A stretch of DNA of 47,214 nucleotides, taken from positions 1 through 47,214 of the IMG/VR virus record IMGVR_UViG_3300046517_000659; one strand, written 5' to 3'. The translations under genes were made by a program, and so were the position numbers. Origin of the DNA: a virus. Under the pieces are notes generated by a model that saw only the letters and a list, made by a program, of their open reading frames with translations, was not told the origin of the DNA and ran no database searches. Position 1 is the first letter of the stretch. The number at the start of each line of letters is the position of its first letter. Below are positions 1,073 through 40,141 of this stretch, piece after piece.

Positions 1073-1876
1073 TCATTGCCACACGCAATCCCCGCCGCCG
1101 AGGGGACAGTTATCCCCTACGAAAATCCACGGGTACCCCGGCCCTGCGCCCCCGTGTAACTGTATGTTCGTAAACTGCCCCGGCGGTAGCGCGGGCTGCG
1201 GGCGTCCCTTAATCACCACTATAACATCCCCAACATCGGTGAAATACAACCGCACCCACTGGTTGTGCTCGTGTGTGTGGATAATCGGGATCAACTGGCA
1301 ATCGTTATCCGTCGTCACCCAGGTCGGCGGAAACGGCATATCTTTCGTGTAGGCGAAGCCGTTGCCGAGGTCGCGGCAGTTGCCACCGACAGGCCCGGTG
1401 ATGTGGCAAGCGAACAGATGTGAGCGCTCAGCGCTGCCGAGGTTATCGCGGCAATCGGCGAGGCTGTTCCACGGCCCCATGAGACCGGACTGTCCGCCTT
1501 CACGCGCGGTCACGTTGTAGTAGAAGGCCTTTTTGACGTGCGGTGGTATGGCGGAACGTGCAGGATTCGAACCTACGGTGCCCGTAGTTCCAGCTTTCCG
1601 AGCATCCCCTTTATGTCGCCTCTCCAACGGTGCGCGCGCCGTCGGCTCTGGTATTAAAGGCGGGGCGGCTTCATCCACTCGCCCAACGTTCCCAGTTTGC
1701 GCATGGCTGATAATCGTCAGCGTCAGCACCTGCTTCGGCTCGTTGACGAATTGGGCAAAGCGGGCGCTGGCGTGTGCACAGGTGCTACAGAGCAGGAAGA
1801 ACACGGCGAGAGCGACGAGGGCGAGCCACAGTCGCCCGTCCGGTCGCCGCCTCGCGTTGTACTGGGTCGGGTCCAT
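1073..1876 (-). CDS. Exported protein of unknown function, overlapping a tRNA-like element
   Basis: 267 residues. A basic N-terminus (ARRRPDGR) is followed by a hydrophobic segment (about 15-32) and AHA-S, a Sec-type signal peptide. The C-terminal half is rich in Cys, Pro and Gly, with spaced cysteines (SLADCRD, HLFACH, GGNCRD, DNDCQ, GDNCP) that could form disulfides in the periplasm. The frame runs unbroken through the tRNA-like sequence at 1549-1692 (about residues 62-110), and that part of the protein (GTTGTVGSNPARS) looks like translated tRNA rather than selected protein. The ATG is preferred to the GTG at 1906. The protein may be a fusion created when the tRNA-like piece entered. No family is recognised. 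Confidence 0.5.
   Translation of the reverse strand: MDPTQYNARRRPDGRLWLALVALAVFFLLCSTCAHASARFAQFVNEPKQVLTLTIISHAQTGNVGRVDEAAPPLIPEPTARAPLERRHKGDARKAGTTGTVGSNPARSAIPPHVKKAFYYNVTAREGGQSGLMGPWNSLADCRDNLGSAERSHLFACHITGPVGGNCRDLGNGFAYTKDMPFPPTWVTTDNDCQLIPIIHTHEHNQWVRLYFTDVGDVIVVIKGRPQPALPPGQFTNIQLHGGAGPGYPWIFVGDNCPLGGGDCVWQ
1549..1692 (-). other. tRNA-like element with acceptor, T arm and CCA, 144 bases
   Basis: On the minus strand the ends form a perfect 7-bp acceptor stem (GGAACGT with ACGTTCC), followed by G and CCA. Next to it is a canonical T arm (GTAGG, TTCGAAT, CCTGC). The 5' part has a serine-type D arm (GGC GAGTGGATGAA GCC), and a TACGG-GCA-CCGTA hairpin resembles a class II variable arm. 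The middle is about 50 bases too long and folds on its own (CCTTTA/TAAAGG enclosing CCGACGG/CCGTTGG). I cannot place an anticodon with confidence. It could be an interrupted tRNA-Ser, a tRNA-derived attachment site, or a structured RNA with a tRNA mimic end. Confidence 0.5.
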
Positions 1877-2712: not shown

Positions 2713-2952
2713 TCACTTTTCACCGCCGCAGATGCAATTCGTGCAGTAAATCGGCCCTATCGGCTTTACCCCTTCTTCAATCGGGTCCAGCACGATTATG
2801 GCCTTGTTGTCGGGCTTTTGAATACACCGATAATGATACGGCGTTATGTGCATGGGCCTGAGCGGTGTCTGCCCTGCCGGTATTGGAATCTCCCACAGGC
2901 GCGGCGTCGGGGTCGCTATTGCCAGAACTATCGCTGCCGCGGCGAGCATCAT
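2713..2952 (-). CDS. Small exported protein with C-terminal cysteines
   Basis: 79 residues. It begins with a short hydrophobic Ala-rich segment (MMLAAAAIVLAIA) that could be a signal peptide, and ends with a Cys cluster (YCTNCICGG). A further Cys lies mid-protein (YRCIQKP). The start overlaps the stop of the large fibre-like gene upstream (ATGA). The function is unknown. The gene fits the run of exported small and large proteins around it. Confidence 0.45.
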   Translation of the reverse strand: MMLAAAAIVLAIATPTPRLWEIPIPAGQTPLRPMHITPYHYRCIQKPDNKAIIVLDPIEEGVKPIGPIYCTNCICGGEK

Positions 2953-5015
2953 CGACTGTCCGCCAGAATCCAGTCGGGGTCGTTGCGCGAGATGAAGTCC
3001 TGATACGTCGAGTGCGCTGCGGGCGGCGTCGGCGCGGGCGCGAGACTCCATATCTCCTCAATCTGCTGCTGGAGCCGTACCGCTGCGCTGGTCTGCGTTG
3101 GAGCGCTCGCCGCCTGTAGCGGCACGGCTACGGACGCGTAGGCCACTGCCGACGACGCTACAATGAGGCTGGCTGAGGCGTAGTCAATGGCTTCGTAATC
3201 CGCCGTCATGCGGCTGCCGAACGTCACGTTCTGCGGCAACTGGACGGCTTGCGGCGCGCCCGGTGAACCGCTCGCGAATCCCGTGAATACCAGTGCCAAA
3301 TCATCGTTCACCGTGGCCGGCCCAATAGGCGCCGCCACGTCGTGTGAGATACCCTCATTCCCCAGCGTGCCGACGATCCCGTCGACCGGCGTAGTGGTGT
3401 TGAGATTCCCCACGTTCACGATAAAGGCGTCGAGTGCGGTCCCCGTAGCCACCATAAAAGTTTGCGTCGAACCGGCAGACAGTCCGGTCTGCGAAAAGAC
3501 GTTCATTTGCACCGTGCCGGAATCATTAGCCTTGGTCCCGACCGTGGCCCAACTAGACGTGCCGGTCAATCGGATAATCCCGATACTTTCTAGCTCCCAT
3601 GATTGGCTGCCTGTACTGGTGAAGTTTTGCGTCCCGATCGAACCCGGCGAGGTTTGGTTGACGTAGCCTGCAGCGTTATTAGTGGGGCTCCCTGAAAGCG
3701 CAGTAGTGGTGCCGCTAGGTTTCGTGACAGTGAACGCGCCGCCTTGATTCGTCGCGACCAGTGCCATTTCATTGTTGGAGATGGTCGTTAGCGCTGGCGC
3801 GTTGGCGTTATTCGCGCTGCCCGAGCTACCGCACGACGAGGCAGGGTCGATTGCCCATCCAGTTCCACTAGTGTTGTGCCAGTCAGTGTAAAAGACGTTA
3901 GGGCTGCCACCAGTCCAGGTATAGGTTGTGCCGATATCCCCGATGACCAGAACTTTATACTGGCAGGCGCTCGGAAAATTTGCCGAGTTGTTACAAATGG
4001 GGATTGAGTTAAGACCCGATGGTGCGGTTAGTGCGCTCCCTGAGTAGGCGCAAGTGACCATCAGGTCGCCGACCGAAGCCCCAGCGTTGATGGTAAAGCT
4101 GCCCGTTGCGGATTTGGCCGAGAATGCCAGCGTCGAGACCGATGCTCCAGTTTGCGGCATCGGAAACACGTTCTGCGCGGAGCCAATCGTTTCGACGCCG
4201 GCAAACGAAACATCGGACGATTGCGCTAGAGCACTCAGGGTTGCCGTGATCGAGGTCACCGAACCAGAGTTGAAGCCTTCAGCGCCGGCGCCTACCATGA
4301 CCGAGCCTGTACTACTGGCCTCCACTGCGCCGGTGAAGCAGGCTACGTCAGCCGAGGAGCCGCTCTGCGCTGGCATGGTCGGTGAGCCGCTATTCTGATT
4401 CCAGCCCAATACGCCGCTGACTAGCGCCGTGCCGAGGTACGTCGGGAAAGGATGAGCAATGGTCGTCCACCCCGCGCTGCCCGCCGCCCAGTTGCATTCG
4501 CTGAATACCAGGTCACCATTCTGCGCAGGCGTCACGGTCGAGGGCGTACAGCTTGTTGAAGCGGCGCAGCCCGTGGTCGCGGGCGTCTCGAACGTCGGCG
4601 CCACGCCATCTGCCGGATGAAATATCCACTGAAGGACTTCGCCTTGATTACCGTTGGTCCAGCTCGTTGCGATCGCCGAACCCGCATCGCCCGCGATTAG
4701 TATTTTTTGAAAGCACGAGATGACGGTTTTGGTCTGGGTTTTCGGACTGCCCCATGCGCTGATGCCGGTCGCCGACCCGTTGATGGTGATCGCCACGCCA
4801 GTCGCAGCCGACCCCGCCCCACCCCAGTTATTCACACAAATTGCGATACCGTCGCCAACACTGGCATAAGCCGCCACCGTTCCGGTGTTGCACGAGGTCG
4901 ATGCCGCGTTGCTGCAATAGGCGGACTGCGAGCCGTAAGTCACCAGCGCGGCGGCGTGAACCTTTGTCGAAGCGCACACCACCAGAATCGCTATGAGCAG
5001 GACGAGCCGCTTCAC
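2949..5015 (-). CDS. Large exported beta-rich repeat protein, fibre or adhesin like
   Basis: 688 residues. The GTG start overlaps the upstream stop (GTGA) and has a GGAG site before it; it gives a clear signal peptide (VKRLVLLIAILVVC, cleavage near VHA-AA). The mature part is rich in Ser, Thr, Gly, Ala and Val with repeated beta-strand blocks: GSVMVGAGAEGFNSGS and GSFTINAGASVGDLMV are similar units. Paired cysteines suggest disulfides in an oxidising compartment. It lies where receptor-binding or fibre genes usually lie in podoviruses, yet classical fibres carry no signal peptide. The alternative is a host-surface or outer-membrane-associated protein made late. No named family is recognised. 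Confidence 0.6.
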   Translation of the reverse strand: MKRLVLLIAILVVCASTKVHAAALVTYGSQSAYCSNAASTSCNTGTVAAYASVGDGIAICVNNWGGAGSAATGVAITINGSATGISAWGSPKTQTKTVISCFQKILIAGDAGSAIATSWTNGNQGEVLQWIFHPADGVAPTFETPATTGCAASTSCTPSTVTPAQNGDLVFSECNWAAGSAGWTTIAHPFPTYLGTALVSGVLGWNQNSGSPTMPAQSGSSADVACFTGAVEASSTGSVMVGAGAEGFNSGSVTSITATLSALAQSSDVSFAGVETIGSAQNVFPMPQTGASVSTLAFSAKSATGSFTINAGASVGDLMVTCAYSGSALTAPSGLNSIPICNNSANFPSACQYKVLVIGDIGTTYTWTGGSPNVFYTDWHNTSGTGWAIDPASSCGSSGSANNANAPALTTISNNEMALVATNQGGAFTVTKPSGTTTALSGSPTNNAAGYVNQTSPGSIGTQNFTSTGSQSWELESIGIIRLTGTSSWATVGTKANDSGTVQMNVFSQTGLSAGSTQTFMVATGTALDAFIVNVGNLNTTTPVDGIVGTLGNEGISHDVAAPIGPATVNDDLALVFTGFASGSPGAPQAVQLPQNVTFGSRMTADYEAIDYASASLIVASSAVAYASVAVPLQAASAPTQTSAAVRLQQQIEEIWSLAPAPTPPAAHSTYQDFISRNDPDWILADSR

Positions 5016-6250
5016 CGCTCCACCTTCGCGGTGATCTTGCCGGCGTTGGCCGCGCCCGACCATGCGCTGCTCGTCGAGGGGTCAGTTGCCGAGACACAAC
5101 CGATTTGCTGGTAGGTTCCGACCATCAGGGCGACTCCGATATTGTTGGCGTCCGCCCCAATCGAGAACCCGTTATCGAACGGGCAGTTATACGTCGTCCC
5201 CGAGATGTTCCAGCCAAGTTGCGCCACGCGCGTTCCGACCGCCGTCTTCTCGACGCTCGCCCGCTGCGTAATCATCAGAATGTTCGAATGCGTGCCGAGT
5301 GTCATGTTGAAAATGTCGATCTGGGCCGCCGTGGCGTCGGAGTTGAAGCTCAGCGCCCCAGGTGTCGCCGCCGCGGCGTTCTGATAGTTGGTGTTCGCGT
5401 TGGGCGTCCACTGGACCGTACCGTTCGAGGTCGGCTGATAATCGACCACATACAGCGTCGTCAGCGCACTCGCGGGACAGGCCGCGCCCGAGTCGTAAAC
5501 CGCCCACGGCCCGAAATCCATCGTGCCGCCCGCGCCTAGTTCGTAATCGACCGGAGTGATGCCGCTGCCGCCGCCGATGTTGGGCGTCGTTGTTGCGGGC
5601 GTCGCGTTGCTGACGAAGTTGCTCTGATTGAGCCACGCCGACTCTTTCGACGGTACGGTGCCCGAACCGTTGGTTCCCGCGATATAACACCATTCGAGTT
5701 GAGCCCAGGTCGCCAGCGTCAGCGCCGCGCTCTTGGAGCCGCTGCCGGTATTGGTGGTGAAAAGCTTGTTGTCGGTGCCAATCTGCATCGACGCATAATC
5801 GACACATCCGAAGGCGTTGCCCGTACCAAGAGGCGCCGTGCAATCATTGAATCGGTTGATGAAGGTCGCGGACGTGATATTGTTATTGAGCCGAATCCAT
5901 TGTACGAGTCCGAGCGCGCGATGGGGTTGCGGGAGCTTGTAGTAAATCCCTTGCCCCGGATTTGGCGACCCACCACCCGCGCAGCCGGAGCCGTTGGTTG
6001 CCGTGACATAGTAATCGGTGCCGACGGCGTTCGGATTCCACGGCGCAGCGCTGGTCGAAAATAGCCCGAAGCAATTCGGCGCGAACACCGCGTAAGGGAA
6101 CATCCCGAAGTAGTTGGTCGTCCCTGCGTTGATCGGATTAGGCGTGCCGAAGCCGTTCCAGGTGCCGCCAGCAATCCACGTCCGCGTCTGCGCCGCTGCG
6201 GGCGAGGCCAGCGCCAGCACCATCACGAGCGTTGCGAGAAGCCGTCTCAC
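5012..6250 (-). CDS. Exported fibre-like protein with a LamG-type fold
   Basis: 412 residues. The GTG start is coupled to the upstream stop (GTGA) behind GGGAG, giving a signal peptide (VRRLLATLVMVLALASPAAA, then Q). The middle (about 95-260) resembles a laminin-G/concanavalin-type beta sandwich: FINRFNDC, DYASMQIGTDNKLFTT, TWAQLEWCYI. The C-terminus is a smaller beta-rich block. The LamG-like fold often binds glycans, which suits adhesion to the host surface. The call rests on residue pattern only. Confidence 0.6.
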   Translation of the reverse strand: MRRLLATLVMVLALASPAAAQTRTWIAGGTWNGFGTPNPINAGTTNYFGMFPYAVFAPNCFGLFSTSAAPWNPNAVGTDYYVTATNGSGCAGGGSPNPGQGIYYKLPQPHRALGLVQWIRLNNNITSATFINRFNDCTAPLGTGNAFGCVDYASMQIGTDNKLFTTNTGSGSKSAALTLATWAQLEWCYIAGTNGSGTVPSKESAWLNQSNFVSNATPATTTPNIGGGSGITPVDYELGAGGTMDFGPWAVYDSGAACPASALTTLYVVDYQPTSNGTVQWTPNANTNYQNAAAATPGALSFNSDATAAQIDIFNMTLGTHSNILMITQRASVEKTAVGTRVAQLGWNISGTTYNCPFDNGFSIGADANNIGVALMVGTYQQIGCVSATDPSTSSAWSGAANAGKITAKVER

Positions 6251-7659
6251 AGCGCTCCCGCATTGGCCGAAATGGTGATACCGCCTTGAGTCAGGGTCGT
6301 GTCGCCGGTCGCAGGGCCATCGATTTCCAGCAGGTCGGTCGCCGCCAAGCTGACCGCGCCCGAGCAAGTAAAGGCCGCTGTCTTGCCCGAACCGCTCCAG
6401 ACTGCCGTCCCGATGGTCGTGCTCGAACCGCCCGAAGTGATTTTCTTGATGGTGAAAGTCGTCGAGCCGGTCGCCGCAACCACAGAGGTTCCCGCCGACG
6501 CGGAACAGTTAATCGGTACGGTCTCCGCGACCGTCATGGGGATGTCGCAGAGAATCGCGTTATTGGTCGCCGCGGCGGGCAGCGGACAGGAGAATTTATC
6601 GGTCTTTTGCGTACAGGTCGGCACGCCCGATGAACTGATGCTGGTGACGATGGAGCCTGCCGAGCATGAGCCGCCCGGAGTCGTGCCGTTGATTTTCGTA
6701 CAGGTGATTGAGTAGGCGTGCGAGCCGGTACGGCTGTATGTACAGTCGCCGCCGAGCGTTTCAAACTCAGGGGCATTCGACCCATCAAGCCCGAGGAATT
6801 GCGGGGAGGTCCCCGACGGTACGCCCGTTGGCGCAGCCGTCCAAGTCATCGCGGACGATCCACCGCCCGCGCTCGTCAAGAAGTACCCCGAGGTTCCTGC
6901 CGTTATCGGCCAGTTCCAGTTGTAAGTGCCCGCCGCCGCTTGTGGTACGAGTGAGATATTCCCGCTTGCGGAGCCCCAGAAGTGCTCCGTTCCAACGTCG
7001 TCAACCGACCAGAGCTTCGCCTCGCCCAACGTCTCCACATCGAGTATCGTGCCGGTCGCGCTCGGGCTGGTGTCGGTGTTGCGAATTAGATGGAGAGCGG
7101 GACTCTCGCCGTTGGTCGGCTGATTGAAAATGCATCCGCCGTTGTAGAACGTGCCCGCGCCATCGCCGTAGCAAATCATCGGCTCCCAAAGCGCGGAGAC
7201 CAACTCGAATTGCGCGAAATGCCCGTGTCCGAGAGTCGATGAATCAGCGGCCTGCAAGCCCCAGCCGGTGTTAGCGCCACCAGTTTGAAGCAGCAGCAAC
7301 GAATCGTGATTCGGGTCCAACTGGACGAGAATGTCCGGGTCACCGGGCGCTGCCTGAAGATTGTGAACCGTCAACTTGCCCAGCACTCCCATGTTCCCGA
7401 CTGCGTCTGCGGTATCGATGTTGGGCGACACCACATTCCCCGTGGTCGCGTAATAGGCGATGTCATTCATCGTGCCGGGGTTGACGCCACCGCCCGAGCC
7501 GAAGGTCGCGCAAATCGGCGGCGTATTCGGCAGCAGTTGCACGACGGCCTTTCCCGCAGGGCACGCTCCAACCCCCGGATGCGGCGTGCTGTTATTGTTT
7601 TGCGCAAAGGCTGGCGTTGCCAATGCCGCGAGCAAGGCGATGACGGCGAAGAACCTCAT
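6247..7659 (-). CDS. Exported tail-fibre-like protein
   Basis: 470 residues. Signal peptide MRFFAVIALLAALATPAFA then Q, with cleavage AFA-Q. The body has phage-fibre features: a knob-like middle (LHLIRNTDTSPSATGT, LWSVDDVGTEHFWGS), then a Gly/Ser/Thr-rich linker (SAGGGSSAMTWTAAPTG) and a C-terminal Thr-rich beta domain. The start ATG overlaps the upstream stop (ATGA). It is probably a receptor-contacting or surface-coating protein. The signal peptide is the odd part and is shared with its neighbours. Confidence 0.6.
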   Translation of the reverse strand: MRFFAVIALLAALATPAFAQNNNSTPHPGVGACPAGKAVVQLLPNTPPICATFGSGGGVNPGTMNDIAYYATTGNVVSPNIDTADAVGNMGVLGKLTVHNLQAAPGDPDILVQLDPNHDSLLLLQTGGANTGWGLQAADSSTLGHGHFAQFELVSALWEPMICYGDGAGTFYNGGCIFNQPTNGESPALHLIRNTDTSPSATGTILDVETLGEAKLWSVDDVGTEHFWGSASGNISLVPQAAAGTYNWNWPITAGTSGYFLTSAGGGSSAMTWTAAPTGVPSGTSPQFLGLDGSNAPEFETLGGDCTYSRTGSHAYSITCTKINGTTPGGSCSAGSIVTSISSSGVPTCTQKTDKFSCPLPAAATNNAILCDIPMTVAETVPINCSASAGTSVVAATGSTTFTIKKITSGGSSTTIGTAVWSGSGKTAAFTCSGAVSLAATDLLEIDGPATGDTTLTQGGITISANAGAL

Positions 7660-8006
7660 TGAGTCATTATCGCCCCATAAGTCGTCGCAACCGTTGAAAT
7701 CACGCTGATGTACTCAGTCGGGCAGACCGGCAGGATAAAGCCATGCGGCAGATTCGCTACGCGCGGCGGCAGTGGCCCGCCGAACTGGTATTCGGTCCCC
7801 GGCTGTAGTTCGATTTCGCCGTTCAGCCCCAACGTCGCAGTGACGCCGAAGGCAACATAGATAATGCCGGTCTGCGGCGCACCCGCCGACACGGTGGGCG
7901 GGTTGTTTGCGTAGTTCTTAATCCACAGAAAGCGGCGCGTGGTGTCGAGCGCGAGCGCGATTGCCGCCGTGCCGGTCGCTGCGATTGGTGTTTGTGCTGT
8001 TGCCAT
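7656..8006 (-). CDS. Small beta-rich structural protein
   Basis: 116 residues, no signal peptide. Sequence such as ALALDTTRRFLWIKNYANN and GEIELQPGTEYQFGGPLPP suggests a compact beta sandwich (jelly-roll-like), as in phage decoration or fibre-associated proteins of about this size. It is coupled by ATGA to the exported fibre-like gene downstream. Between its start and the next minus-strand gene lies a plus-strand cassette. Confidence 0.5.
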   Translation of the reverse strand: MATAQTPIAATGTAAIALALDTTRRFLWIKNYANNPPTVSAGAPQTGIIYVAFGVTATLGLNGEIELQPGTEYQFGGPLPPRVANLPHGFILPVCPTEYISVISTVATTYGAIMTQ

Positions 8007-8009
8007 CTA

Positions 8010-8039
8010 TTGACTTGCTTCCCTAGTGGGTGGTACTTA
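8010..8039 (+). promoter_or_regulatory. Promoter of the plus-strand zinc-ribbon cassette
   Basis: TTGACT (8010-8015), an 18-base spacer, then TACTTA (8034-8039). Only seven bases separate the -10 box from the ATG at 8047, so the transcript should start at or next to the initiation codon. No Shine-Dalgarno sequence is present. The same arrangement recurs at 28907 and 44086. Confidence 0.5.
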
Positions 8040-8046
8040 TTGCGAA

Positions 8047-8181
8047 ATGACCGTCGTTCAAGTCACCGCGTTCAAGTGCGACCGATGCCATTGGCTCTGG
8101 ACGCCACGAAAGAAGTCCAAGCCGCTGATTTGTCCCAAGTGCAAAAGCGCGTACTGGAATACGCCAAGGAGAAAGAGATGA
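8047..8181 (+). CDS. Small zinc-ribbon protein, first gene of a plus-strand cassette
   Basis: 44 residues: CDRC at 11-14, then CPKC at 29-32, followed by SAYWNTPRRKR. It matches, part by part, the zinc ribbon at 28946 (CERC, CPNPQC, SPYWNRPRSKK), so the two are paralogues. The pattern C-x2-C, W, C-P-x-C, YWN-x-PR is a widespread mini zinc-ribbon family thought to bind DNA or act in regulation. It stands against the surrounding minus-strand genes, has its own promoter and is probably translated from a leaderless message. Its stop overlaps the next gene (ATGA). Confidence 0.7.
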   Translation: MTVVQVTAFKCDRCHWLWTPRKKSKPLICPKCKSAYWNTPRRKR

Positions 8182-8423
8182 AACGCTTCGCGCCTGTAGT
8201 CGGTCTGTTCGCTCTGTTCTGTCTGCAACTCCCCAACCTCGGCTCGCTAAATCATTTGCTGCAATCCGTCGAGGAACATCAGCTCGGACTGCCGCATGAG
8301 ATCATTACTTCCGATGGCAATGGCGGCTATGTCCTGTTCTTTCGAGCCGACCTCACGCAGCAGGTCATTCAAAATTTCCTCTACAATAATCAACCCGATG
8401 CCTCTTTCTGTCCGGCGTCCTAG
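8178..8423 (+). CDS. Small exported protein in the plus-strand cassette
   Basis: 81 residues. The start overlaps the stop of the zinc-ribbon gene (ATGA), with AAGGAG upstream. The N-terminus (MKRFAPVVGLFALFCLQLP) looks like a signal peptide, starting like the exported fibre-like proteins on the other strand (MKRFALLL at 12564). The rest (HEIITSDGNGGYVLFFRADL) is unrecognised. The 3' end overlaps the convergent gene by 4 bases. Its role with the zinc ribbon is unknown. Confidence 0.5.
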   Translation: MKRFAPVVGLFALFCLQLPNLGSLNHLLQSVEEHQLGLPHEIITSDGNGGYVLFFRADLTQQVIQNFLYNNQPDASFCPAS

Positions 8424-11065
8424 GGGCTCATCCTCGTGGCGACCAGCGACGACCCGGCCTTGACCGCCGTCGCTGTACCGTCCGAGGTATTCTGCGCCCA
8501 TTGTAATTGCACCGTTCCGGGCGTTACTCCGTTGATTACTTGCCCGATGAGTTTCGACATATAAGCCGTAACGCTACCGCCGCCTGTAGCTAATGTGAGA
8601 CTTGTGCCGGATACGGTCTGCGGCGCTGTCCCGCTCACAGCCACCCATTGCAGCGTACAACCGGCGGGTACGGTAAATGCCGCCTTAACCCCCGAAGCGG
8701 CCCCACCATCGAACGTCGAATAGATGTCTATTTCAAACTGCCACACTTCACTCGCAGCAACGGGGAATGAGAGCGCCGTATCGTTGACGAGCGTCGTGCT
8801 CGACGCAACGGTCTGATCGGTGGGCTTGTAAACGCGCAGTAGTGGCGCCGTCCCTATCCAACTAAGGTTGCCGCTACCATCATTGACCAACGTAGTTTCG
8901 GCGCCACCCGAAGCTGTAGGGAGTACGAGGTCCGCTGGACTACCCGCAGCAGCAGCTACCTTGATCGCAGCCGACCCGCTGGTCGATCCATTCATGGTCA
9001 ACTTACCGCCGGTAGCAGCCGCCGTGCCGCTCGTCAGAGTTCCCGCTACCGCGAGGTTGCCCGCCACGCCACCCGTGAGAGTGGTTGCGCCGGTGACGCC
9101 CAGCGTGCCGGTGACGGTCGCGTTACCCGCGACACTCTGGTTGCCGCTGACTACGTTGTTCCCGCCGACATTGAACGCGCCTGTGGTATTGACGGTCGGT
9201 GGCACAGCCCCTGGAGCCGCCATCGAGTTATCCGTGAATGTGAGCACGCCAGCGCTCACGGTTCCAACCAACCCCAGCGAGCCGCCGATGCGCCCATAGA
9301 TGTTGAAGCCGCCATGACACTGAGACTCCGCACTCCATGTGACTGTGTTGAAGTGCGTTCCGTCCAGCGTTGCGGCATTGACCGAAGTAGAGCCACTGCT
9401 TGCCAGCGTCTCCGTCGAGTTATCGCCGAGGCAAGAAACTTTATAGGTGTACGTCGTCGCACAAGTGCCAGAGCAGGTCGCCGACACGCCCACGCCGCTT
9501 GGCGCGGTTAATTGCGTCGAGTTGAGCGTGTTGATGTTGATGCCGGAGTAATTATTGAAGTTGGCCGTAGCCGTCAGCGGAAAAGTCGCAACCCCGGCAA
9601 ACGTAGTAGCCGTCCCCGATAATTGAGTCCCGTTTGTCGCGACGAACTGCCAGATGTTATGAGCGTTTGCTGCCGTGCTCGGCATAGCGGGCTGGCTTCC
9701 GGCTCCCGGCCACGCCAGCGACCATCCAGCCGGAACGGTAAAGGTCGGCGACCAGCCGCCCGTCCCATTTTCGGTGATGTCGATTAAAAAGCTCGCGCCA
9801 CTGGCGAAGTTCGTAAGGGCGACGGTCGCATTGCCCGTCAGAATTACTTGCTGGACGTTCCCGTTGACGCCGATATTGACGGTGGCCGTCGTGCTTTGCG
9901 TCTGCGAGAACGCAGCCGGTGCGGTAATGGTCGATGTCCCGATAGTTCCCGGCGGCGGATTCGTTACCGTCACGCCCGCGAACAGGGGTCCCGCCGTAGC
10001 GACTGCGCTTACCACTTCCGGCGGGTCCGTCTGCGACAGCATGATCGCAGTCAGGTCGCAGGTCGTGGAAAAAGGGATTACCAGCGGAATCGTCGGGCCG
10101 AACCCGACGCTGAGATTGACGTGGGCGCCCTGCTGCACCTGGCAGCCTGAAAGGATGGTTCCCGTGTTGTCGGTGTGGCAGACCAGCTTGGACGGCGCGA
10201 TCGGTAGCACACTCCCCCCTCCTGGTACTTGCAGCGCGGTCGTGGTGAAGGTCAGGTCGGCGTTTTTGAACGCCTGCGCCGTCGCCGGATTGAGCGACGC
10301 AATCTGATTCGAGAAAGCGCAATAGCTATTCGTTATCGGGGTAGGATTACCGCCCGTGAGCGTGACCGCCTGCGCATCGGTGAGCTGGGTTCCGTTCCAC
10401 CACGCCGTTGCGTAGAGGGTACCGTTGAAATTCTGGTAGCTCGGGCTGAGTTGCCAGCCCGCCGTATTGATGCCGCCGAAGAACCAGTAGCCATTGACGT
10501 AGTTCGCCAACGTCAACGTCCGCGAGGCGACCAGCGAGCCATCGACGTAGAGCTTCATGCCCGCTGCGCCAACGCTCACCACCGCCTTGTGCTCGTTGCC
10601 GTCCGCGTAAGGTAACGGCGACTGGAGCACTTGCTGCGTCGAGAAGTTGTTGACGCCGAAGGTCAGCTTGCCGTGGTTATCGAGAAAGAGAACGTAGTAG
10701 GGCGAAGCCGACAGTGATGAGGCCGTCGCGAGTTGCGCGATGCCGCCCGACGTGCCCGCGAAGTCCCAGTACATCGTCATCGGCTGCGGGTTGCTGTAGT
10801 TGGTCGGCGTCGTGATATTGCAGCCCAGCGCCGTATTATTGCAGGCGATTCCGCCGTTCTGGTTTAAAGTATAGCTGCCCGAAATCGTTCCACTGTTGGA
10901 ATCAATGGTGTCGGAAATCAGCGTGCCGACCGTCTCCTGCATGGGATAGCAGGAGGTTGCGGCGGGCGACGTGCCGGTTACGGCGCTCGGGCAGGTGAGG
11001 GCCAAAGCGCCCCGCGCGCTCATCATCCACAGCAACGCCACCACCACAGCAGCGAGTCGTTTCAC
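8420..11065 (-). CDS. Very large exported LamG-containing fibre or adhesin protein
   Basis: 881 residues, GTG start overlapping the upstream stop (GTGA) behind GGAGG. A signal peptide (VKRLAAVVVALLWMMSARG, cleavage near ALA-L) leads to a LamG domain at about 75-240, with characteristic parts: MTMYWDFAGTSGG, GNEHKAVVSVG, MKLYVDGSLVASR, YWFFGG. A middle Ig-like or beta-sandwich region follows, then phage-fibre repeats built on TVTGTLGVTGATTLTGG (around 670-700) that resemble beta-helical fibre shafts, and a C-terminal beta domain. LamG domains bind carbohydrates; the fibre repeats point to a trimeric tail fibre. Its combination with a signal peptide is unusual. Confidence 0.65.
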   Translation of the reverse strand: MKRLAAVVVALLWMMSARGALALTCPSAVTGTSPAATSCYPMQETVGTLISDTIDSNSGTISGSYTLNQNGGIACNNTALGCNITTPTNYSNPQPMTMYWDFAGTSGGIAQLATASSLSASPYYVLFLDNHGKLTFGVNNFSTQQVLQSPLPYADGNEHKAVVSVGAAGMKLYVDGSLVASRTLTLANYVNGYWFFGGINTAGWQLSPSYQNFNGTLYATAWWNGTQLTDAQAVTLTGGNPTPITNSYCAFSNQIASLNPATAQAFKNADLTFTTTALQVPGGGSVLPIAPSKLVCHTDNTGTILSGCQVQQGAHVNLSVGFGPTIPLVIPFSTTCDLTAIMLSQTDPPEVVSAVATAGPLFAGVTVTNPPPGTIGTSTITAPAAFSQTQSTTATVNIGVNGNVQQVILTGNATVALTNFASGASFLIDITENGTGGWSPTFTVPAGWSLAWPGAGSQPAMPSTAANAHNIWQFVATNGTQLSGTATTFAGVATFPLTATANFNNYSGININTLNSTQLTAPSGVGVSATCSGTCATTYTYKVSCLGDNSTETLASSGSTSVNAATLDGTHFNTVTWSAESQCHGGFNIYGRIGGSLGLVGTVSAGVLTFTDNSMAAPGAVPPTVNTTGAFNVGGNNVVSGNQSVAGNATVTGTLGVTGATTLTGGVAGNLAVAGTLTSGTAAATGGKLTMNGSTSGSAAIKVAAAAGSPADLVLPTASGGAETTLVNDGSGNLSWIGTAPLLRVYKPTDQTVASSTTLVNDTALSFPVAASEVWQFEIDIYSTFDGGAASGVKAAFTVPAGCTLQWVAVSGTAPQTVSGTSLTLATGGGSVTAYMSKLIGQVINGVTPGTVQLQWAQNTSDGTATAVKAGSSLVATRMSP

Positions 11066-11697
11066 GAATGAGCCTCCATCGAACACTTGGCCTCTAACGC
11101 GGTCGGCGTGCCATTCGGTGTGGACGTATAATTAAGGATGTCGTTGGCCGAAATGCTTACGGTGGCGGAGCTGGTACACGTAGAAATCGCCGCCGTGATA
11201 GTACACGTCAGGGCAGATGAGGAATTGTTCACTTGAAGCGCAAGGACGTAGTTTGTTCCGCCCGCGACCGTGACGGTGCCGCCGGAAGTCATCAAGGTGC
11301 AACGAAGATTAGTCGCGGTATAAGCTCCAGATGAAACAGTCTGAACGTTACCGACGGTCCCCGACGATGCCGCCGGTGAAAATCCATTAACGGCAAAGAA
11401 CGATGCCGCCGAGGTCGAGAGCGTGGCATTGGACCCCCCTAGCCATACCCACGAGATATTAGGCCCAGTCGGTCCTGTAGGGCCTGTAGGTCCGGTCGGA
11501 CCAGTGGCTCCGGTCGGACCCGTCGGGCCTGTGGCGCCCCCAGGCCCCGCCGTGCCCACGCCGCCTCCGCCGCCTACGAATGCCCACGCTGGCAGTTGCA
11601 CAAAGGATGCAGCGGCCATTACAAATGCGGCAAAGAGAACGCCGATGACAATGCCCTTCGCGCCCTTTCGCGTCTGTTGTCTTTGCTGACGTTCCAT
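11062..11697 (-). CDS. Exported collagen-like protein (short)
   Basis: 211 residues. A basic start (RQQRQQTRKGAKG) and hydrophobic helix ending AWA form an anchor or signal peptide. Next come a glycine run and about 12 Gly-X-Y triplets, mainly GPT and GAT (residues about 48-80), then a C-terminal beta-rich domain with paired cysteines. Gly-X-Y segments in phage proteins form triple helices that trimerise fibres. The stop of the upstream gene is directly followed by this ATG (TAAATG). A second, much longer collagen-like protein lies at 21255-22403. Confidence 0.6.
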   Translation of the reverse strand: MERQQRQQTRKGAKGIVIGVLFAAFVMAAASFVQLPAWAFVGGGGGVGTAGPGGATGPTGPTGATGPTGPTGPTGPTGPNISWVWLGGSNATLSTSAASFFAVNGFSPAASSGTVGNVQTVSSGAYTATNLRCTLMTSGGTVTVAGGTNYVLALQVNNSSSALTCTITAAISTCTSSATVSISANDILNYTSTPNGTPTALEAKCSMEAHS

Positions 11698-12564
11698 TTA
11701 TAGACCCGTCTGCAACCAGTTCGTCCCGTTGCAATAAATTTGACAGTGAGTCGATCCGCTGCTCGTCGCCGTGGCGCCGGCAGAGCAAGCTCCAGTGCTA
11801 TTCGTTTCCGTTGCCGAGCGTCCTTCCGCAGCACTGTTGCAGGTGCCGAAGGTTGCGAGCACCGCAGGAGAACTTCCGACACCGAGAGTCGTTACGACAA
11901 CCGCGCCAGTGATCGCGCCGTCCTTGGAAACTGTCGCTTTGTTTGCCCCGTTGACCTTCAGGTCCATCAAATCGACCGAGGTTCCCGAAGGCGCATTCGC
12001 CACAATCTCGACGGTTGCGGTATCGGTTGGCGACGAAAACAGTTCGCCCTTTTGCGAGATAGCCGCCTGCGTGATGCTGTTGTCTTGGCAAACGAAGCAG
12101 TTGCCCGCGGTGTCCGTGCTCGGGATGTTGGCGAAGAAGGCGTCGTTCGTCGTGTCAATGGGAATCGCGGCGAGAGATGCGACCTGCGATGAGTTATGCG
12201 ATGAGTCGGCGCCCCCGGGTACGGCGAACAATGTCTGATTGGCGCTGTTCTTTACGGCGATGGAGTTTCCGGTCGTGGACGCGGGCATCGTGATGTCGAG
12301 CGCATCGTGGCTGGTGCTCACCGGCGCGATCGTAACGGTATCCGAGAAGGTTCCGCCGCCAGTATTGGGCGTCGCAACAAACGCCGACCCGCTCCAGTAA
12401 TACAGCCCGTGCGCGGTCGTATCAAAGCACCACTGGACCGACCCGAAATGCGGCGAATGGGCGCAATCTAGAGACTGCATGGCAAAGGTAATTGCACCTT
12501 GAGCCCGCGCAAGAGCGGGTGCGGCCAAGGTGAGGAGACTCAATAAAAGGGCGAAGCGCTTCAT
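11698..12564 (-). CDS. Exported fibre-like protein with C-terminal Cys domain
   Basis: 288 residues. Signal peptide MKRFALLLSLLTLAAPALA, cleavage ARA-Q. The N-terminal third (CFDTTAHGLYYWSGSAF) resembles the neighbouring protein at 12565-13359 (CFDTVLNTFNVWNGTTF), so the two are related. The end (FGTCNSAAEGR, then HCQIYCNGTNWLQ) matches a short phage fibre tip often seen in tail proteins. It is probably a surface fibre or adhesin subunit. Confidence 0.6.
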   Translation of the reverse strand: MKRFALLLSLLTLAAPALARAQGAITFAMQSLDCAHSPHFGSVQWCFDTTAHGLYYWSGSAFVATPNTGGGTFSDTVTIAPVSTSHDALDITMPASTTGNSIAVKNSANQTLFAVPGGADSSHNSSQVASLAAIPIDTTNDAFFANIPSTDTAGNCFVCQDNSITQAAISQKGELFSSPTDTATVEIVANAPSGTSVDLMDLKVNGANKATVSKDGAITGAVVVTTLGVGSSPAVLATFGTCNSAAEGRSATETNSTGACSAGATATSSGSTHCQIYCNGTNWLQTGL

Positions 12565-13359
12565 TCACTTCCCTACGCAGATAACACCGAAGCTGTCGGT
12601 GCCTGCGGTGGTCACGACGATGCTCGTAGTTCCCGGCGATGACACTGCGCAGCCATGAGCCGCCGTCGAGATGTTCGAGCAGACGCACACCGGAGCCGCC
12701 GCGAATGCCGTCCCGAAGGTCACAGTCGCGGGGCTGGTCGCGCCCGTCGCGATGAACGCTGAATCAGTTCCGCCAGCCGTTATCGAGCCAGTGCCGATGG
12801 TCGGAGGCGTGCCCGCGCCAATCGGATTCGAGATGTGACCGCCCGCACTCGCGTTGATGGCTTTGTCGCCAGTGCTCGATGCGGTGACGCTCGTGACCGT
12901 CGGAGTGGCTGAGTAGGCTGGGACCGTTGCCGTGCCGCCCGAAGTCAGCACAGAGCCGGTCGCCACGTCCGCGAGGTCCGCTTGCTGGCCCGTGCCGTTG
13001 GAATAGGTCACGAGAGCGCCCTGCACCGGAACCGTCGATTTCAGGGTCAGCGTATAGGCGGTCGGAGCCGAACCGGACGAAATGTTGATGTGCCCCGACG
13101 CGGTGCCGTTCAACTGAAGCGGCGACGTGAAGGTTCCAGTGCCGTTCGAGATAACCGAGAAGGTCGTCCCATTCCAAACGTTGAAGGTGTTGAGCACGGT
13201 ATCGAAGCACAGATACGCGCTGCCGTAATCCGGCGAGCCGATACAGGCGTTCGAGAACATCATCGGCCCTTGCGGGCCGGGGTTCTGTGCGCGACTGATC
13301 GAGGGCAGAAACAGGGCCAGCGCCACCGTCAGCAGAATCAGGTTGAAATATCGTTTCAT
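12565..13359 (-). CDS. Exported fibre-like protein, paralogue of its neighbour
   Basis: 264 residues. Signal peptide MKRYFNLILLTVALALFLP, cleavage SRA-Q. A shared N-terminal module (CFDT..NxFNVWNGTTFSV) is followed by Thr/Ser/Gly-rich beta repeats and a C-terminal domain with CVCSN and a cysteine near the end, as in phage fibre tips (FGTAFAAAPVCVCS is typical of such tips). An AAGGAGA site lies upstream of the ATG. Confidence 0.6.
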   Translation of the reverse strand: MKRYFNLILLTVALALFLPSISRAQNPGPQGPMMFSNACIGSPDYGSAYLCFDTVLNTFNVWNGTTFSVISNGTGTFTSPLQLNGTASGHINISSGSAPTAYTLTLKSTVPVQGALVTYSNGTGQQADLADVATGSVLTSGGTATVPAYSATPTVTSVTASSTGDKAINASAGGHISNPIGAGTPPTIGTGSITAGGTDSAFIATGATSPATVTFGTAFAAAPVCVCSNISTAAHGCAVSSPGTTSIVVTTAGTDSFGVICVGK

Positions 13360-13378
13360 TGGAATCTCCTTGCTGTGA

Positions 13379-13774
13379 TTAGCGTGAACACCAGTCCACG
13401 ACGGTTGACGTGCTGCCGCTCAACAAAACTGCCGCCCAACCCTGCCCCATCGCATCGAGACAGGTCGGAGCCGGACAAGTAACCGCGTCGGGAAGGTAGC
13501 TCCCCGAGGGAATCTCCATCGCCGCCGCAGGGCTAGGAACCGCCGTCGGAACTGTTCCCGTGTACGGGAAGATGAGCACGGGGTCCGCCGCTGGCGTCGA
13601 ACGTACATGCGCAATCCACGTTGTCATGCGCCCCGGCGTTGCGACCGCCACCGGTGACGAGGAGGAACTAATCGTCGTACTCAGGCAGGTGTAGGTGTTG
13701 TTGGTCTGCGCCCACACCACGCCGACGTACCCCAGCACCAACGCCACGGGGAGAAATCTAAGCCACTTCTTCAT
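13379..13774 (-). CDS. Small exported protein
   Basis: 131 residues from the ATG at 13774, which overlaps the stop of the ejection-protein gene (ATGA). Signal peptide MKKWLRFLPVALVLGYVGV, cleavage VWA-Q. The mature part has cysteines (TYTCLS, VTCPAPTCLDA, DWCSR) that probably pair as disulfides. The in-frame upstream extension lies inside the neighbour and is ignored. The function is unknown; it heads the run of exported fibre-like proteins. Confidence 0.55.
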   Translation of the reverse strand: MKKWLRFLPVALVLGYVGVVWAQTNNTYTCLSTTISSSSSPVAVATPGRMTTWIAHVRSTPAADPVLIFPYTGTVPTAVPSPAAAMEIPSGSYLPDAVTCPAPTCLDAMGQGWAAVLLSGSTSTVVDWCSR

Positions 13775-16533
13775 GGTTGAGCCTCTTGCTCCTTGTCGTC
13801 CTGTTCCTTCATTCGTCGCATTGCGACTGCCGTAGCGACTCGCGCCATTCGTGCTCCGAAGCGCCCCGCATTGAGCGTGTTCGGTGCCATTTCGATCGCG
13901 TGCCAATATTGCGCCGCCGCCTCTGGCGTACTGAGTGCTGGTCGGAGCATTGTGCGAATCTTGTTTGCCCCCATCATGCCGAGAATCATTCCCGAGATTG
14001 CGCCTTGATAGCCGAGCCCCATGCTATGACCACCGGCGGCGCCCGCCGCCATGCCGCCGATCATCATCGGCAGGTGCCACGCAAAGAGCCGTCGCTTGAG
14101 CATCCCCACGGTCGGATCATTGGCGGACTGCATTAGCTGCTGAACTGCGGCGTCTTCGCGGACCTTATTGATGTCCAGTCCTTTCTCGATCTGCTTCGCC
14201 TCGCGCACAGCGTTGAATGCTTGCTTTGCGGGCACCTGTTGCGCCTGTTGGTAGAGTTGCTGCGCCTGTTGCTCGTTGATCGGAAATTCCTGTTCGACGA
14301 TACGTGCGGCTTCCGTCGGGTCTTTGGCGGCGAGAATCTTGGCGAGTTTACTGCGCCCCATCGGCCCGAGCCTTTCCGCCAACTTAATGCCCGCTTTGCG
14401 CACGTCGGCGGCGTGCTCTTCGGTGATGGTCTGCAATTCGCGCTGAAAGCCCATCTGCGAAATGCGGCGCATATCGGGGCTCTGCGCTCGCGCGGCTTCC
14501 CACGCCAACGCCTTCGGCGTCGATTCCGTCCACGGCTTAAGGTTGGCGTAGGGCGTATCGCCAAATAGTTCCTTCATGACCGACGGATTCACCTTTTTGC
14601 CGAGCACCATCGGAGACATCCGCTTCGAGTAAACGTAATCCGCGAATAACTGCTTCAGGCTGTCTTTTTCGTCGGGCGTTGCGCCCCTAATAATGCTGAG
14701 GCCGCGTTTAGGATTCTCGAATAGCGATTTGCCGTAGTCGGCGGGATTGCCTGCCGTGGCGACGCTGCGCCGAAACGCCGAATTGAATAGCGCCTTGTGC
14801 GTGCCCCATTGCTCACGGAGTTCCTTCGGAATCTCTACGCCGGAATCCATCAAGGTCTGGTCGATGGCGTCGCGCAGTTGCAGGGCGACTACCTGGTTGT
14901 GATCGGTCTGCGAGGCCGCGAGCTTGGTCGCTTCAGTGCGCCAGCCGAGCAGCTTGCCAATAGTCGGCAAATCTTCATTGCCCGCCAAGGCCATCGACAC
15001 GAGTTGGTGATTCGTCTCAGACTTAATAGATTTGCTCGGATTCGCCCGCACCCAAGCGTCAAAGAGTTTGGTATATCGCGCCTGCGAGAGCTTCTCGCCT
15101 TCACCCGCCATTATGTCAGCGTATTGCGCTTGGGTAGCTTCCGCTGTCTGCGGCTTTGGGAATTGCTCCAACAGGTCGCGAATCGGCTTCGATACCGACT
15201 TACCGCGCTCCGACAGCCACTCGTGCTCACTCGCAATCGTCTTGGCGAGCGGGTCGAGATTTTCGACGGGATTGTTCAGCTTGCCTTCGGTCGCTACCTC
15301 GAATTGTTTGCCAAGGTCCTCGCCGATGCGATTGACCGGCCCGAACACGACGTTGCGCATATTGGCGCGATGCAAGGCGTAATCTTCGGGCGTCATTTCC
15401 AAGACGGACTGACTCTCCGCTGGCGTGCGCCCGAGGAATTTGCCCATCGCCGCTTGCGATGCAGCGGGTGCCTGCGCTTCTAGCGCCTTCCCTTTCTGTG
15501 CGATGGATTCATCGCGAATGTTCTGAACTTCCTTCACGCCCTTTTCGTAGGCGCCCTGCATTTTGTCGGCCTTCGCACGTTCGGCCTTACTCACATCACC
15601 GCCGAACTCGTAAATGTCCTTCGGTGCGCCTTCGAGCGCTTTGGTCTCGGCAGTATCGGCCGCTGTGCGCGCGGCCTGCTCTTGAGCGGCAGGCAACGAA
15701 CGAAGATTCGCTGCCGAACTCCCAAGGCGTGATTCGAGTCCGCCAACTACCATCGGAGCCGCAAAGCCCGCGACGGCGCCGATGATGGGCGCTGCCGCCT
15801 TGACCGTCGGATTGTCGGACTGGGCCGCCTTCTCAGTTGCGTAATTGCCCGCCTTTTCTGCCGTCCAGCCGTAGAGGTATTGTTCGGCAGTGCCAATTCC
15901 GGCGTTCAGAATGCGCCCTGCTGCCGTTTTAGGGACGAACCCGATGCCGGAACCCAGTCCCGCAGTCATCACGCCTATAGTGGCGTTTTCGACCATCGGG
16001 TCGGACATATCCGTACCACCGCCTTCAACGGCTTTGCGCTGCGCTTCAATCTTCGACGGGTCGGTTCCTCGCGCGGGGAAGTTTACGTTGCGCGGCTTGG
16101 CGAGCGTTCCCGCAGGCTGCGGCTTTTCGTCCACAACCTTCGCGTCTTTCCAGAAGTCGCCGCCACCTTCTACGGTCGCGCCACCCCAGAAGCTATTTGA
16201 TGCGTCCGCCATTACCTTCGGAACGTAATCCCTTGTTTCCTTCGGCCATGCGCGAGGATTGTCGCCAACGCGATCAATGTTCCCCGGCCCCCAGTTATAC
16301 GCGGCGAGCGCAAGGCGATGATTACCGTCGTACTTCTTGAGCAAGTCGTTGAAGTAGCGCGTTCCGACATCACGATTAACGGCGGGGTCGGAAAGCTGCG
16401 ACGGATCGACGCCATAATCCTTGGCGGTCTCAGGCATGATTTGCATGAGTCCGCGCGCACCCTTGGGCGACGTTGCGCTTGTGTCGCCCGCGGATTCGTT
16501 CTGGATAATCGCATCGACAAATGGATCGCTCAT
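13771..16533 (-). CDS. Internal virion/ejection protein with lytic transglycosylase domain
   Basis: 920 residues. The N-terminal 110 residues form a soluble lytic transglycosylase domain: catalytic Glu13 in NESAG, GLMQIMPETA at 28-37, and AYNWG at 78-82. The rest is mostly charged helix with an Ala/Gly-rich, membrane-compatible patch near the C-terminus (GMAAGAAGGHSMG). Large podovirus ejection proteins have this architecture (T7 gp16-like): the enzyme opens peptidoglycan while the rest helps span the envelope during DNA entry. It lies next to two other probable internal proteins. The ATGA overlap with the next gene suggests coupled synthesis. Confidence 0.85.
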   Translation of the reverse strand: MSDPFVDAIIQNESAGDTSATSPKGARGLMQIMPETAKDYGVDPSQLSDPAVNRDVGTRYFNDLLKKYDGNHRLALAAYNWGPGNIDRVGDNPRAWPKETRDYVPKVMADASNSFWGGATVEGGGDFWKDAKVVDEKPQPAGTLAKPRNVNFPARGTDPSKIEAQRKAVEGGGTDMSDPMVENATIGVMTAGLGSGIGFVPKTAAGRILNAGIGTAEQYLYGWTAEKAGNYATEKAAQSDNPTVKAAAPIIGAVAGFAAPMVVGGLESRLGSSAANLRSLPAAQEQAARTAADTAETKALEGAPKDIYEFGGDVSKAERAKADKMQGAYEKGVKEVQNIRDESIAQKGKALEAQAPAASQAAMGKFLGRTPAESQSVLEMTPEDYALHRANMRNVVFGPVNRIGEDLGKQFEVATEGKLNNPVENLDPLAKTIASEHEWLSERGKSVSKPIRDLLEQFPKPQTAEATQAQYADIMAGEGEKLSQARYTKLFDAWVRANPSKSIKSETNHQLVSMALAGNEDLPTIGKLLGWRTEATKLAASQTDHNQVVALQLRDAIDQTLMDSGVEIPKELREQWGTHKALFNSAFRRSVATAGNPADYGKSLFENPKRGLSIIRGATPDEKDSLKQLFADYVYSKRMSPMVLGKKVNPSVMKELFGDTPYANLKPWTESTPKALAWEAARAQSPDMRRISQMGFQRELQTITEEHAADVRKAGIKLAERLGPMGRSKLAKILAAKDPTEAARIVEQEFPINEQQAQQLYQQAQQVPAKQAFNAVREAKQIEKGLDINKVREDAAVQQLMQSANDPTVGMLKRRLFAWHLPMMIGGMAAGAAGGHSMGLGYQGAISGMILGMMGANKIRTMLRPALSTPEAAAQYWHAIEMAPNTLNAGRFGARMARVATAVAMRRMKEQDDKEQEAQP

Positions 16534-19782: not shown

Positions 19783-21254
19783 TTATGGGAACGCCCCCAT
19801 CGAGTTCAGCCCGCCGGGTAACCCCGGAAGTCCTGCATTGTGCAGAGGACTCGGCCCAGTCAGGGTAAAATCGTGCGCGGCTGCGTTGGTGTAGAGCGGA
19901 TTGACGTTGCTGATGCTGTGCGCGCCCGCCGCAGTATCGTTCGACACCTGCCCCTGCGCTCCGCCGCGATCGTTATAGTCGTCGGTGAAATGAACGAGCA
20001 CATTCACATGAACCGTGCCGCCATCATAAATCAGATTCTTGGCGTCAATCGTCGTGTCTTCGTTAAATCCGCATCCCGAACTCGGAGCTTCGCAGTCGGA
20101 CGCGAGTAGCGCCTTCGCCACGGCTCCGGCTGTGTACCAAGTATTGTTATAAACTTCTTCATGTTGCGGGCAGTGCGTGCCGGACAATGGTAGGCAGTTC
20201 GCATCGGGCGAGCTTTGGAAATCCAAAGCTGAACCATAGGCCACATTTTGCGTAATCAGATTGTCGCTGCCCACCCCACCATGAAATGAGTTGGCGATGT
20301 AGTACGCGCTTTGGCAATTACTCCCACAGGTTGTTACTCCAGTCGTCGCGACATTCTGAGTGATGGTTGCCTGAGTCGTCCCGAACGTCCCCGAGCCTTT
20401 TACGTCGATGCAGTTATGAACGCAGCCGGGGCCGACCGTATTCCCCTGAACAATCGGCGCACCCCCGTCGTAATGAACCTGAAGGCAGTTATGCCCGCCG
20501 CAGTGGTTTACGATGTTGTTGATGAAATGGACGTTATCGATGCCCGCGCCTTTGCCGGAGTCCTCGAAGTCAAGCTGGTTGCGATAGGGCAAAGTCGGAT
20601 CGTCACAACCGCCCGCGACAATTCCGCCACCCACTGGTGCGCACTTATTATCATTCGCGGGGTTGGGGCCGAGGGTGGTGTTCGCCGCATATGCGCCCGG
20701 ACCTGTATCGTGAAGGTTGGAGTTCTGAACGGTGATTCCCGGCATCCCGCCGTTGACCGTCTGAAAGGTGATGGCGTACTGCGTAGTATTTTTGCACTCG
20801 AAGCCATCAATCGTAATGTATTTCGCGGTGGTCGAAATCGCGTTTATACAGGTGTGCCGAGTCGAACCGCCGTCGATAATCGGCAACGCCCCGGAGCCAT
20901 AGTTCCCTAGAATGATCGGATGGCCCGAAGTGCCCTGCATGTTCGTGATAGTCAATTCTTCGGTCCACGTATCGCCGCGTTTCCATAAGACTTGCGCATC
21001 GGGCGATAGCGAGGCTTGAATCGCCGCCACTGGACGGAACGAACACCACGGTTGGGCCGGAGACGTACCGAATCCTGCATCCGCAGCCGCACACACTCCA
21101 CTCGGCGCCGCCGATCCATTGTAACCGCTCTGGTTGGAATCGACGTAATGAGCGCCACTCGGCGTGTGCGCCGTGAACGTAAAGGCGATGCTGCCCGTCT
21201 GAAATCCCATCAGGTAAGTCGCGGCCACCAACAGCAATGCTAACCACACGATGT

Positions 21255-21258
<4 letters not shown>
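19783..21258 (-). CDS. Exported right-handed beta-helix protein, candidate polysaccharide-degrading or binding protein
   Basis: 491 residues. A signal peptide or anchor ([19 protein letters not shown]) is followed by a pectate-lyase-like start ([36 protein letters not shown]) and repeated rungs of Asn-rich beta helix ([43 protein letters not shown]). Phages use such solenoids as depolymerases that cut capsule or lipopolysaccharide, but they normally lack signal peptides. Many cysteines suggest disulfides. Catalytic acids cannot be assigned from sequence alone. Confidence 0.6.
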
Positions 21259-22399
<1,141 letters not shown>

Positions 22400-22403
<4 letters not shown>

Positions 22404-29456: not shown

Positions 29457-29698
29457 TGAACGCAAAACAGAGGCGAACTGCTCGGCGCGCAATGCGGCGG
29501 CACTGGGCGATTATCGATATACAGCCAATGCCCATCATTCACGCGAACATGCTCGAAACAATGGAGTGGGCACAGCGGCAGATTATTGCAATCTGTGGGC
29601 TATCGAAAGAACTGCTCACCGCGCATGAAACGAGCAGTCAAGTCGGCTTGATTGCTTTCAGCACGAAGGCCAGCCGGTCTTCGCCCTTTTGCAGATGA
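29456..29698 (+). CDS. Small basic protein, third gene of the cassette
   Basis: 80 residues; the N-terminus is very basic (MNAKQRRTARRAMRRHW), suited to nucleic-acid binding. The start lies at the HNH stop (ATGATGA) behind AGGGAG. The last 61 bases overlap the convergent methyltransferase gene, so the C-terminus may be under double constraint or spurious. No family recognised. Confidence 0.45.
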   Translation: MNAKQRRTARRAMRRHWAIIDIQPMPIIHANMLETMEWAQRQIIAICGLSKELLTAHETSSQVGLIAFSTKASRSSPFCR

Positions 29699-30180: not shown

Positions 30181-30278
30181 TTGGCCGGCCGGATAAAGAT
30201 CGAGATTATGAGCAAAACGGCGACGACATCGATTGCATTGCAGATAAATTCAATAACGCGGAACTCTGTGCCACTCAT
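30177..30278 (-). CDS. Tiny one-helix membrane protein between glycosyltransferase and methyltransferase
   Basis: 33 residues; a hydrophobic helix (VVAVLLIISIFI, about 18-29) ends in RPAK. Both ends overlap neighbours by ATGA, so it is likely translated with them. It may anchor the two modification enzymes at the inner membrane, where glycan lipids are made. That link is inference from position. Confidence 0.5.
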   Translation of the reverse strand: MSGTEFRVIEFICNAIDVVAVLLIISIFIRPAK

Positions 30279-30994: not shown

Positions 30995-31188
30995 CGATTG
31001 CTCTCTAAGCATCGCTGAATTTCCTGCTCGACCGCAGGCGTTAGCGATAGTTCTCCGTCGAGCACGCGCTGAATATGGCGATTCGCAACACCTAAAGCGA
31101 TCCATTTCCGGTCCGCGACGGCTTGGTTCTCGTTCTCCGCCGCAAGCATAATTTCGTTTCGCTGCTGAATATAATCGTCGATGCTCAT
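30991..31188 (-). CDS. Small helical protein of unknown function
   Basis: 65 residues from the ATG coupled to the upstream stop (ATGA). Charged and helical throughout (YIQQRNEIMLAAENENQAV, LTPAVEQEIQRCLES). The pattern VANRHIQRVLDGELSLTPAVEQEIQ could be a helix-turn-helix, similar to small DNA-binding proteins, but this is weak. Sits ahead of the glycosyltransferase. Confidence 0.45.
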   Translation of the reverse strand: MSIDDYIQQRNEIMLAAENENQAVADRKWIALGVANRHIQRVLDGELSLTPAVEQEIQRCLESNR

Positions 31189-40114: not shown

Positions 40115-40141
40115 CTTTCGGCTTCGACCCCTCGCTGTCCA

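Follow-up and report, generated by a model that had tools for sequence, protein, structure and literature searches.

The window analysed here is the whole of IMG/VR virus record IMGVR_UViG_3300046517_000659, a linear stretch of 47,214 bases. It encodes a phage of the short-tailed type, with a P22-like portal protein (E = 5e-47), a Phage_capsid_3 capsid protein and an SLT-domain ejection protein. Its relatives in INPHARED are distant, with terminase and nozzle proteins mostly 22–30% identical and capsid proteins at most 34% identical. The related IMG/VR contigs are G001, G002 (L004), G003 (L005), G004 (L006), G005 (L037), L038 and L050. G001 is 100% identical to the window across their overlap, and the capsid proteins of G002–G004 are 85–88% identical to that of the window. 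The ejection protein, which matched no viral contig when used as a direct query, is 46% identical to its counterpart in G002 and 21% in G003.

Directly after the ejection gene lie nine minus-strand ORFs, from 2949 to 13774, here called the array. They are given below with the bordering ejection gene and further genes of the window; genes are named in the text by their lower coordinate.

13771..16533, minus strand: SLT-domain ejection/internal virion protein, 0 Cys; upstream border of the array
13379..13774, minus strand: family F1, 131 aa, predicted exported (VWA-Q), 4 Cys; first array gene, 4-nt overlap with the ejection gene
12565..13359, minus strand: family F2, 264 aa, predicted exported (SRA-Q), 6 invariant Cys
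11698..12564, minus strand: predicted exported protein (ARA-Q), 288 aa, 8 Cys; N-terminal mature domain in common with F2
11062..11697, minus strand: predicted exported collagen-like (GPT)n protein, 211 aa, 4 Cys; tail-fibre PHROGs
8420..11065, minus strand: family F3, LamG/concanavalin-like, predicted exported, 881 aa, GTG start overlapping the upstream stop, 13 Cys
7656..8006, minus strand: small protein without a signal peptide, 116 aa; G003 homologue likewise without
6247..7659, minus strand: predicted exported protein (AFA-Q), 470 aa, 12 Cys
5012..6250, minus strand: predicted exported protein (AAA-Q), 412 aa, 8 Cys
2949..5015, minus strand: predicted exported protein, 688 aa, 12 Cys
2713..2952, minus strand: hydrophobic N-terminus, signal peptide not called, 79 aa, 4 Cys
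21255..22403, minus strand: collagen-like, weaker signal peptide (SSA-A), 6 Cys
19783..21258, minus strand: hydrophobic N-terminus not called cleavable, 491 aa, 16 Cys
40238..41623, minus strand: predicted exported protein (AKA-Q) upstream of the terminase gene, 6 Cys, possible Tat motif
1073..1876, minus strand: predicted exported protein (AHA-S), 6 Cys, internal ATG start

The eight signal-peptide genes of the array start at 13774, 13359, 12564, 11697, 11065 (GTG), 7659, 6250 (GTG) and 5015 (GTG). Of these starts, five share 4 nt with the end of the preceding gene and two directly follow its stop (0 nt), indicating that the chosen starts are real; for the remaining gene, 12565, an AAGGAG site is present. 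Between 8007 and 8419 the array has a gap of 413 nt without a clear minus-strand gene; the plus-strand ORF at 7992–8423 contains an internal start with a hydrophobic stretch after it.

Some other features of the window were also recorded. Among the head genes (29638–31105 and 33097–34410) are a methyltransferase-like protein, a glycosyltransferase-like protein (PHROG E = 8e-14) and a conserved 437-aa protein, which has no Pfam or PHROG match but relatives, seen by eye, in G002, G003 and G005. These three could be modifiers of virion or fibre proteins. Genes for tRNA-Thr(cgt) and tRNA-Gln(ttg) (41646–42215) lie upstream of 40238, whose longest frame extends into the tRNA-Thr gene. On the plus strand, 45092–45463 matched phrog_25535 (E = 2e-38) and, weakly, an anti-restriction PHROG.

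Signal peptides and cysteine content

Signal peptides were scored with our own rule-based scorer, which uses n-region charge, the hydrophobic core and the −3/−1 rule and, in a test, gave scores of 5.4–7.5 for 16 well-known signal peptides of E. coli. Eight of the nine array ORFs scored 6.3–8.1 at their starts and carry the n-region, h-region and −3/−1 small residues of a canonical Sec/SPI signal peptide, while the 7656 protein gave no signal-peptide score, exactly the distribution claimed in the first-pass annotation. For comparison, 5 of 377 non-overlapping ORFs (1.3%) in eight reference phages reached a score of 6.2, among them lambda Lom, which is exported, and Rz, which is membrane-anchored. 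Shuffled sequences reached 6.2 in at most 0.15% of cases. Within the window, the proportion in the array (8/9) was far greater than that in the other late genes (2/28; Fisher P = 1e-5). The cleavage sites are canonical A-x-A, with Q as the next residue in 15 of 20. No lipobox (SPII lipoprotein) was found in any signal-peptide protein, so lipoprotein export was rejected, and the only possible Tat motif is that in 40238.

The same annotation had listed further exported proteins outside this run. Strong signal peptides were confirmed at 1073 and 40238 and a weaker one was found at 21255 (score 5.8), whereas the N-termini at 2713 and 19783 are hydrophobic but contain no basic residue, and neither was called.

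The mature signal-peptide proteins are also rich in Cys. In the window, G002 and G003 their Cys content is 2.15%, compared with 0.78% for the other listed proteins (MWU P = 5e-7). The number of Cys is even in 18 of 19 of these mature proteins, or 20 of 21 when L050 is included, against 20 of 38 other Cys-containing proteins (Fisher P = 0.001 for the comparison with 20/21). Across five homologue pairs that are 41–62% identical, 32 of 33 Cys are conserved; the large ejection proteins contain none. An even and conserved set of Cys fits disulfide pairing in the periplasm, and would fit the signature of an oxidising compartment, which is indirect evidence for export, independent of the signal peptides. 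Disulfides alone do not prove export, because structural proteins of phage Milano, with 2.1% Cys, are disulfide-linked, apparently without an export step (PMC10811340). Judged from the signal peptides, the Cys pattern, the translationally coupled starts and the layout common to four phages (below), export of the array products is highly likely.

Conservation and fibre character of the array

A search for the array in related metagenomic phages found the same layout, a block after the ejection gene, in three contigs. The block has three strong signal peptides and one borderline in G002, five genes (one borderline) in G003, and in L050 two complete genes that were called and a third, at the contig end, that was read by eye. 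Like that of the window, these blocks begin with 4-nt overlaps. The proposed tail-fibre position of the array was borne out, the block lying directly after the ejection genes in four contigs. Families F1 (13379), F2 (12565) and F3 (8420) are common to related contigs, and the F1 homologues, at the same position, are 59.7% (G002) and 32.6% (G003) identical to that of the window. In homologue pairs the signal peptides are 35–55% identical and the mature parts 41–62%; the signal peptides have diverged in sequence across relatives while their class was kept. Homology between the 13379 and 7656 families was unsupported (hhalign probability 1.2%).

Several putatively exported proteins of G003, L050 and G005 have long Thr/Pro/Ala-Thr repeats directly after the signal peptide, resembling extracellular linkers. 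Loci with such repeats are L008 4537–7413, L050 8954–13608 and G005 39562–40350 (reverse complement), and one repeat gene of G005 is within the head-tail block. In G002, a non-exported ORF (L004 18557–19024) sits between two exported genes and has the look, by eye only, of a homing-endonuclease insertion.

Pfam and PHROG searches of the window signal-peptide proteins gave a clear family match only for the collagen-like and LamG ones. The 11062 protein, with its (GPT)n repeat, matched tail-fibre PHROGs (E = 4e-10, partly via the collagen-like repeat), in agreement with the collagen-like, fibre-like content described earlier. Two LamG-like proteins had been described as well; only 8420 is supported (Pfam E = 1.4e-6), and 2949 and 5012 have no significant Pfam domain. 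The other match to a fibre-type domain was by a G002 protein, 23568, most other array proteins having no match. Its signal peptide is borderline (score 5.1), its PHROG matches are to tail fibre, virion structural and head decoration proteins, and it matched the solved virion proteins PDB 9efk orf22 (E = 2e-17) and 9nx3, a capsid decoration protein (E = 6e-5). Homologues of 23568 in cultured phages, annotated as tail fibre or hypothetical, have no signal peptide and 0–0.2% Cys. The C-termini of 23568 and window 21255 are 41% identical.

No Pfam match to an outer-membrane barrel was found among the signal-peptide proteins, and no docking domain common to all mature array proteins; an N-terminal domain is shared by just two of them, 11698 and 12565. 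In INPHARED nothing informative was matched by the 8420, 6247, 11698, 12565-family, 13379-family or 21255 proteins, the one match to 8420 being LamG-only. A scan of bacterial genome contigs gave only distant, generic LamG proteins, from Actinobacteria and one Cytophagaceae MAG, and no host assignment. The low-confidence structure model of F1 (pLDDT 67) begins with a helix, and its fold matched several short uncharacterised phage proteins with E values down to 2e-4. The 12565 model was discarded (pLDDT 43).

The tail fibres of cultured relatives share an N-terminal domain (DWDTTxANNT type), have few or no Cys and carry no signal peptide. The domain is presumed to be the virion anchor because it lies N-terminally in the fibre. 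A profile of this domain, built from the fibres of five cultured relatives, recovered the held-out RHph_Y1_10 (E = 3e-24) and C72C1 (E = 9e-13). In the window, G002, G003 and L050 all its matches had E > 0.4, but these contigs are linear and possibly incomplete, so an anchored tail fibre could sit outside them.

Virion fibres or a secreted set

We propose that the array is a tail-fibre/adhesin cassette re-targeted to Sec, with periplasmic export and disulfide folding, a reading to which we give an even chance. Late genes after the ejection gene would encode fibre-like proteins with cleavable signal peptides, and these would be exported to the periplasm and cleaved by the host signal peptidase. 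There they would fold with paired disulfides, as the number, parity and conservation of their Cys suggest, and would substitute for the usual cytoplasmic tail fibre as receptor- or surface-binding fibres. They may then join released particles at or after lysis, as periplasm and cytoplasm mix. That the products are phage fibre-type proteins is probable; that they join virions, the option we prefer, is slightly less than an even bet. Virion fibres are favoured by the position of the array and by the usual fibre not having been found. Eight or more fibres, however, would be many for a short tail, and the 7656 protein, inside the array without a signal peptide, also counts against the proposal.

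The products could instead be exported and disulfide-bonded but never enter the virion. They would either be retained in the envelope or be released for receptor binding or masking (superinfection exclusion), for exopolysaccharide binding, or for sticking cells and debris to one another. The signal peptides and Cys pattern are consistent with such a role, as are the LamG/concanavalin-like domain and the collagen-like repeats, and the lack of a docking domain shared by the mature proteins speaks for it. There is also a precedent in lambda Lom, an exported outer-membrane protein whose gene adjoins those of the tail fibres (PMC12309495) and which our scorer called. Against this, the array fills the usual tail-fibre position in contigs where the fibre N-terminal domain was not found, G002 23568 has a virion decoration/tail-fibre domain, and up to eight genes have been maintained in the late operon of four phages. 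We consider a purely secreted set a serious but minority possibility.

It is unlikely that nothing is exported by Sec and that the N-termini remain uncleaved, as hydrophobic helices fixing the fibres to the tail or to a membrane. The helix at the first residues of the F1 model (pLDDT 67) and the hydrophobic N-termini of 19783 and 2713, which lack a clear cleavage pattern, would agree with such anchors. The basic n-regions and the canonical A-x-A sites, mostly followed by Q, would not, nor would the even, conserved Cys of the mature parts, and the signal sequences diverge with their class kept, unlike a binding motif. An artefact is very improbable, whether from wrong start codons or from an island of host genes that was captured by the phage contig or joined to it in assembly: four ORFs can indeed be read further upstream than the start chosen, and few of the window signal-peptide proteins match a known family, but the starts match stop–start overlaps, the block directly follows phage ejection genes in four separate contigs, and the bacterial LamG matches are generic and distant.

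Tail-fibre assembly is taken to be cytoplasmic. If the proposed cassette is real, a conserved, exported, disulfide-bonded fibre array that replaces the usual fibre would imply either that virion assembly has a stage after lysis or that the phage encodes a large secretome altering the host surface, and host-range annotation would have to seek fibres among exported proteins of unknown function. More broadly, we tentatively suggest, at somewhat worse than even odds, that a clade of tailed phages builds its host-binding fibres outside the cytoplasm, by Sec passage, periplasmic oxidation and fitting to the virion at or after lysis, or by self-assembly into an extracellular adhesin layer.

Comparison with known systems

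The podovirus-like relatives include Rhizobium phages RHph_N3_2 and RHph_Y1_10, C72C1, Microcystis phages, Paracoccus phage KLEP18-1 and Pelagibacter phage HTVC106P. Their capsid and tail proteins are related to those of the window, and nozzle, ejection proteins and fibres follow in the same order in most, although in HTVC106P the fibre genes precede the ejection genes. Their fibres, with the DWDTTxANNT-type domain, few or no Cys and no signal peptide, are unlike the array. An apparent exception is a gene adjoining the tail fibre of Microcystis phage Mae-JY35 (L043, 19373–20605), whose product starts MVLFILAFLLSASPASA and has 4 Cys. Read by eye, this cultured relative may have one exported protein in its fibre region, the scorer being negative for want of a basic residue.

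The F1 model has a weak fold similarity (E = 0.011, pLDDT 67) to the Ena endospore appendages, which are disulfide-linked pili; there is no sequence relation and membership is not claimed. Agrobacterium phage Milano is similar in the Cys content of its structural proteins (about 2.1%), but there the cross-linked proteins are those of the sheath and baseplate, within the virion (PMC10811340), whereas here the Cys enrichment is concentrated in the signal-peptide proteins, and the ejection proteins contain no Cys. Secreted endolysins, such as that of Pseudomonas phage UFJF_PfDIW6, are likewise Sec-exported late phage proteins, but each is a lysis enzyme encoded by a single gene and is not fibre-like (PMC8951688). 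Lambda Lom is an exported outer-membrane protein among tail-fibre genes, but it is one gene, and the window proteins have no Pfam match to such a barrel family. The array had been regarded as unusual, and a limited literature search with partial coverage was consistent with this, finding single exported phage proteins and no multi-gene exported fibre array. Single exported phage proteins (Lom, signal-peptide endolysins) are already known, and the part that appears new is the multi-gene array of predicted exported fibres.
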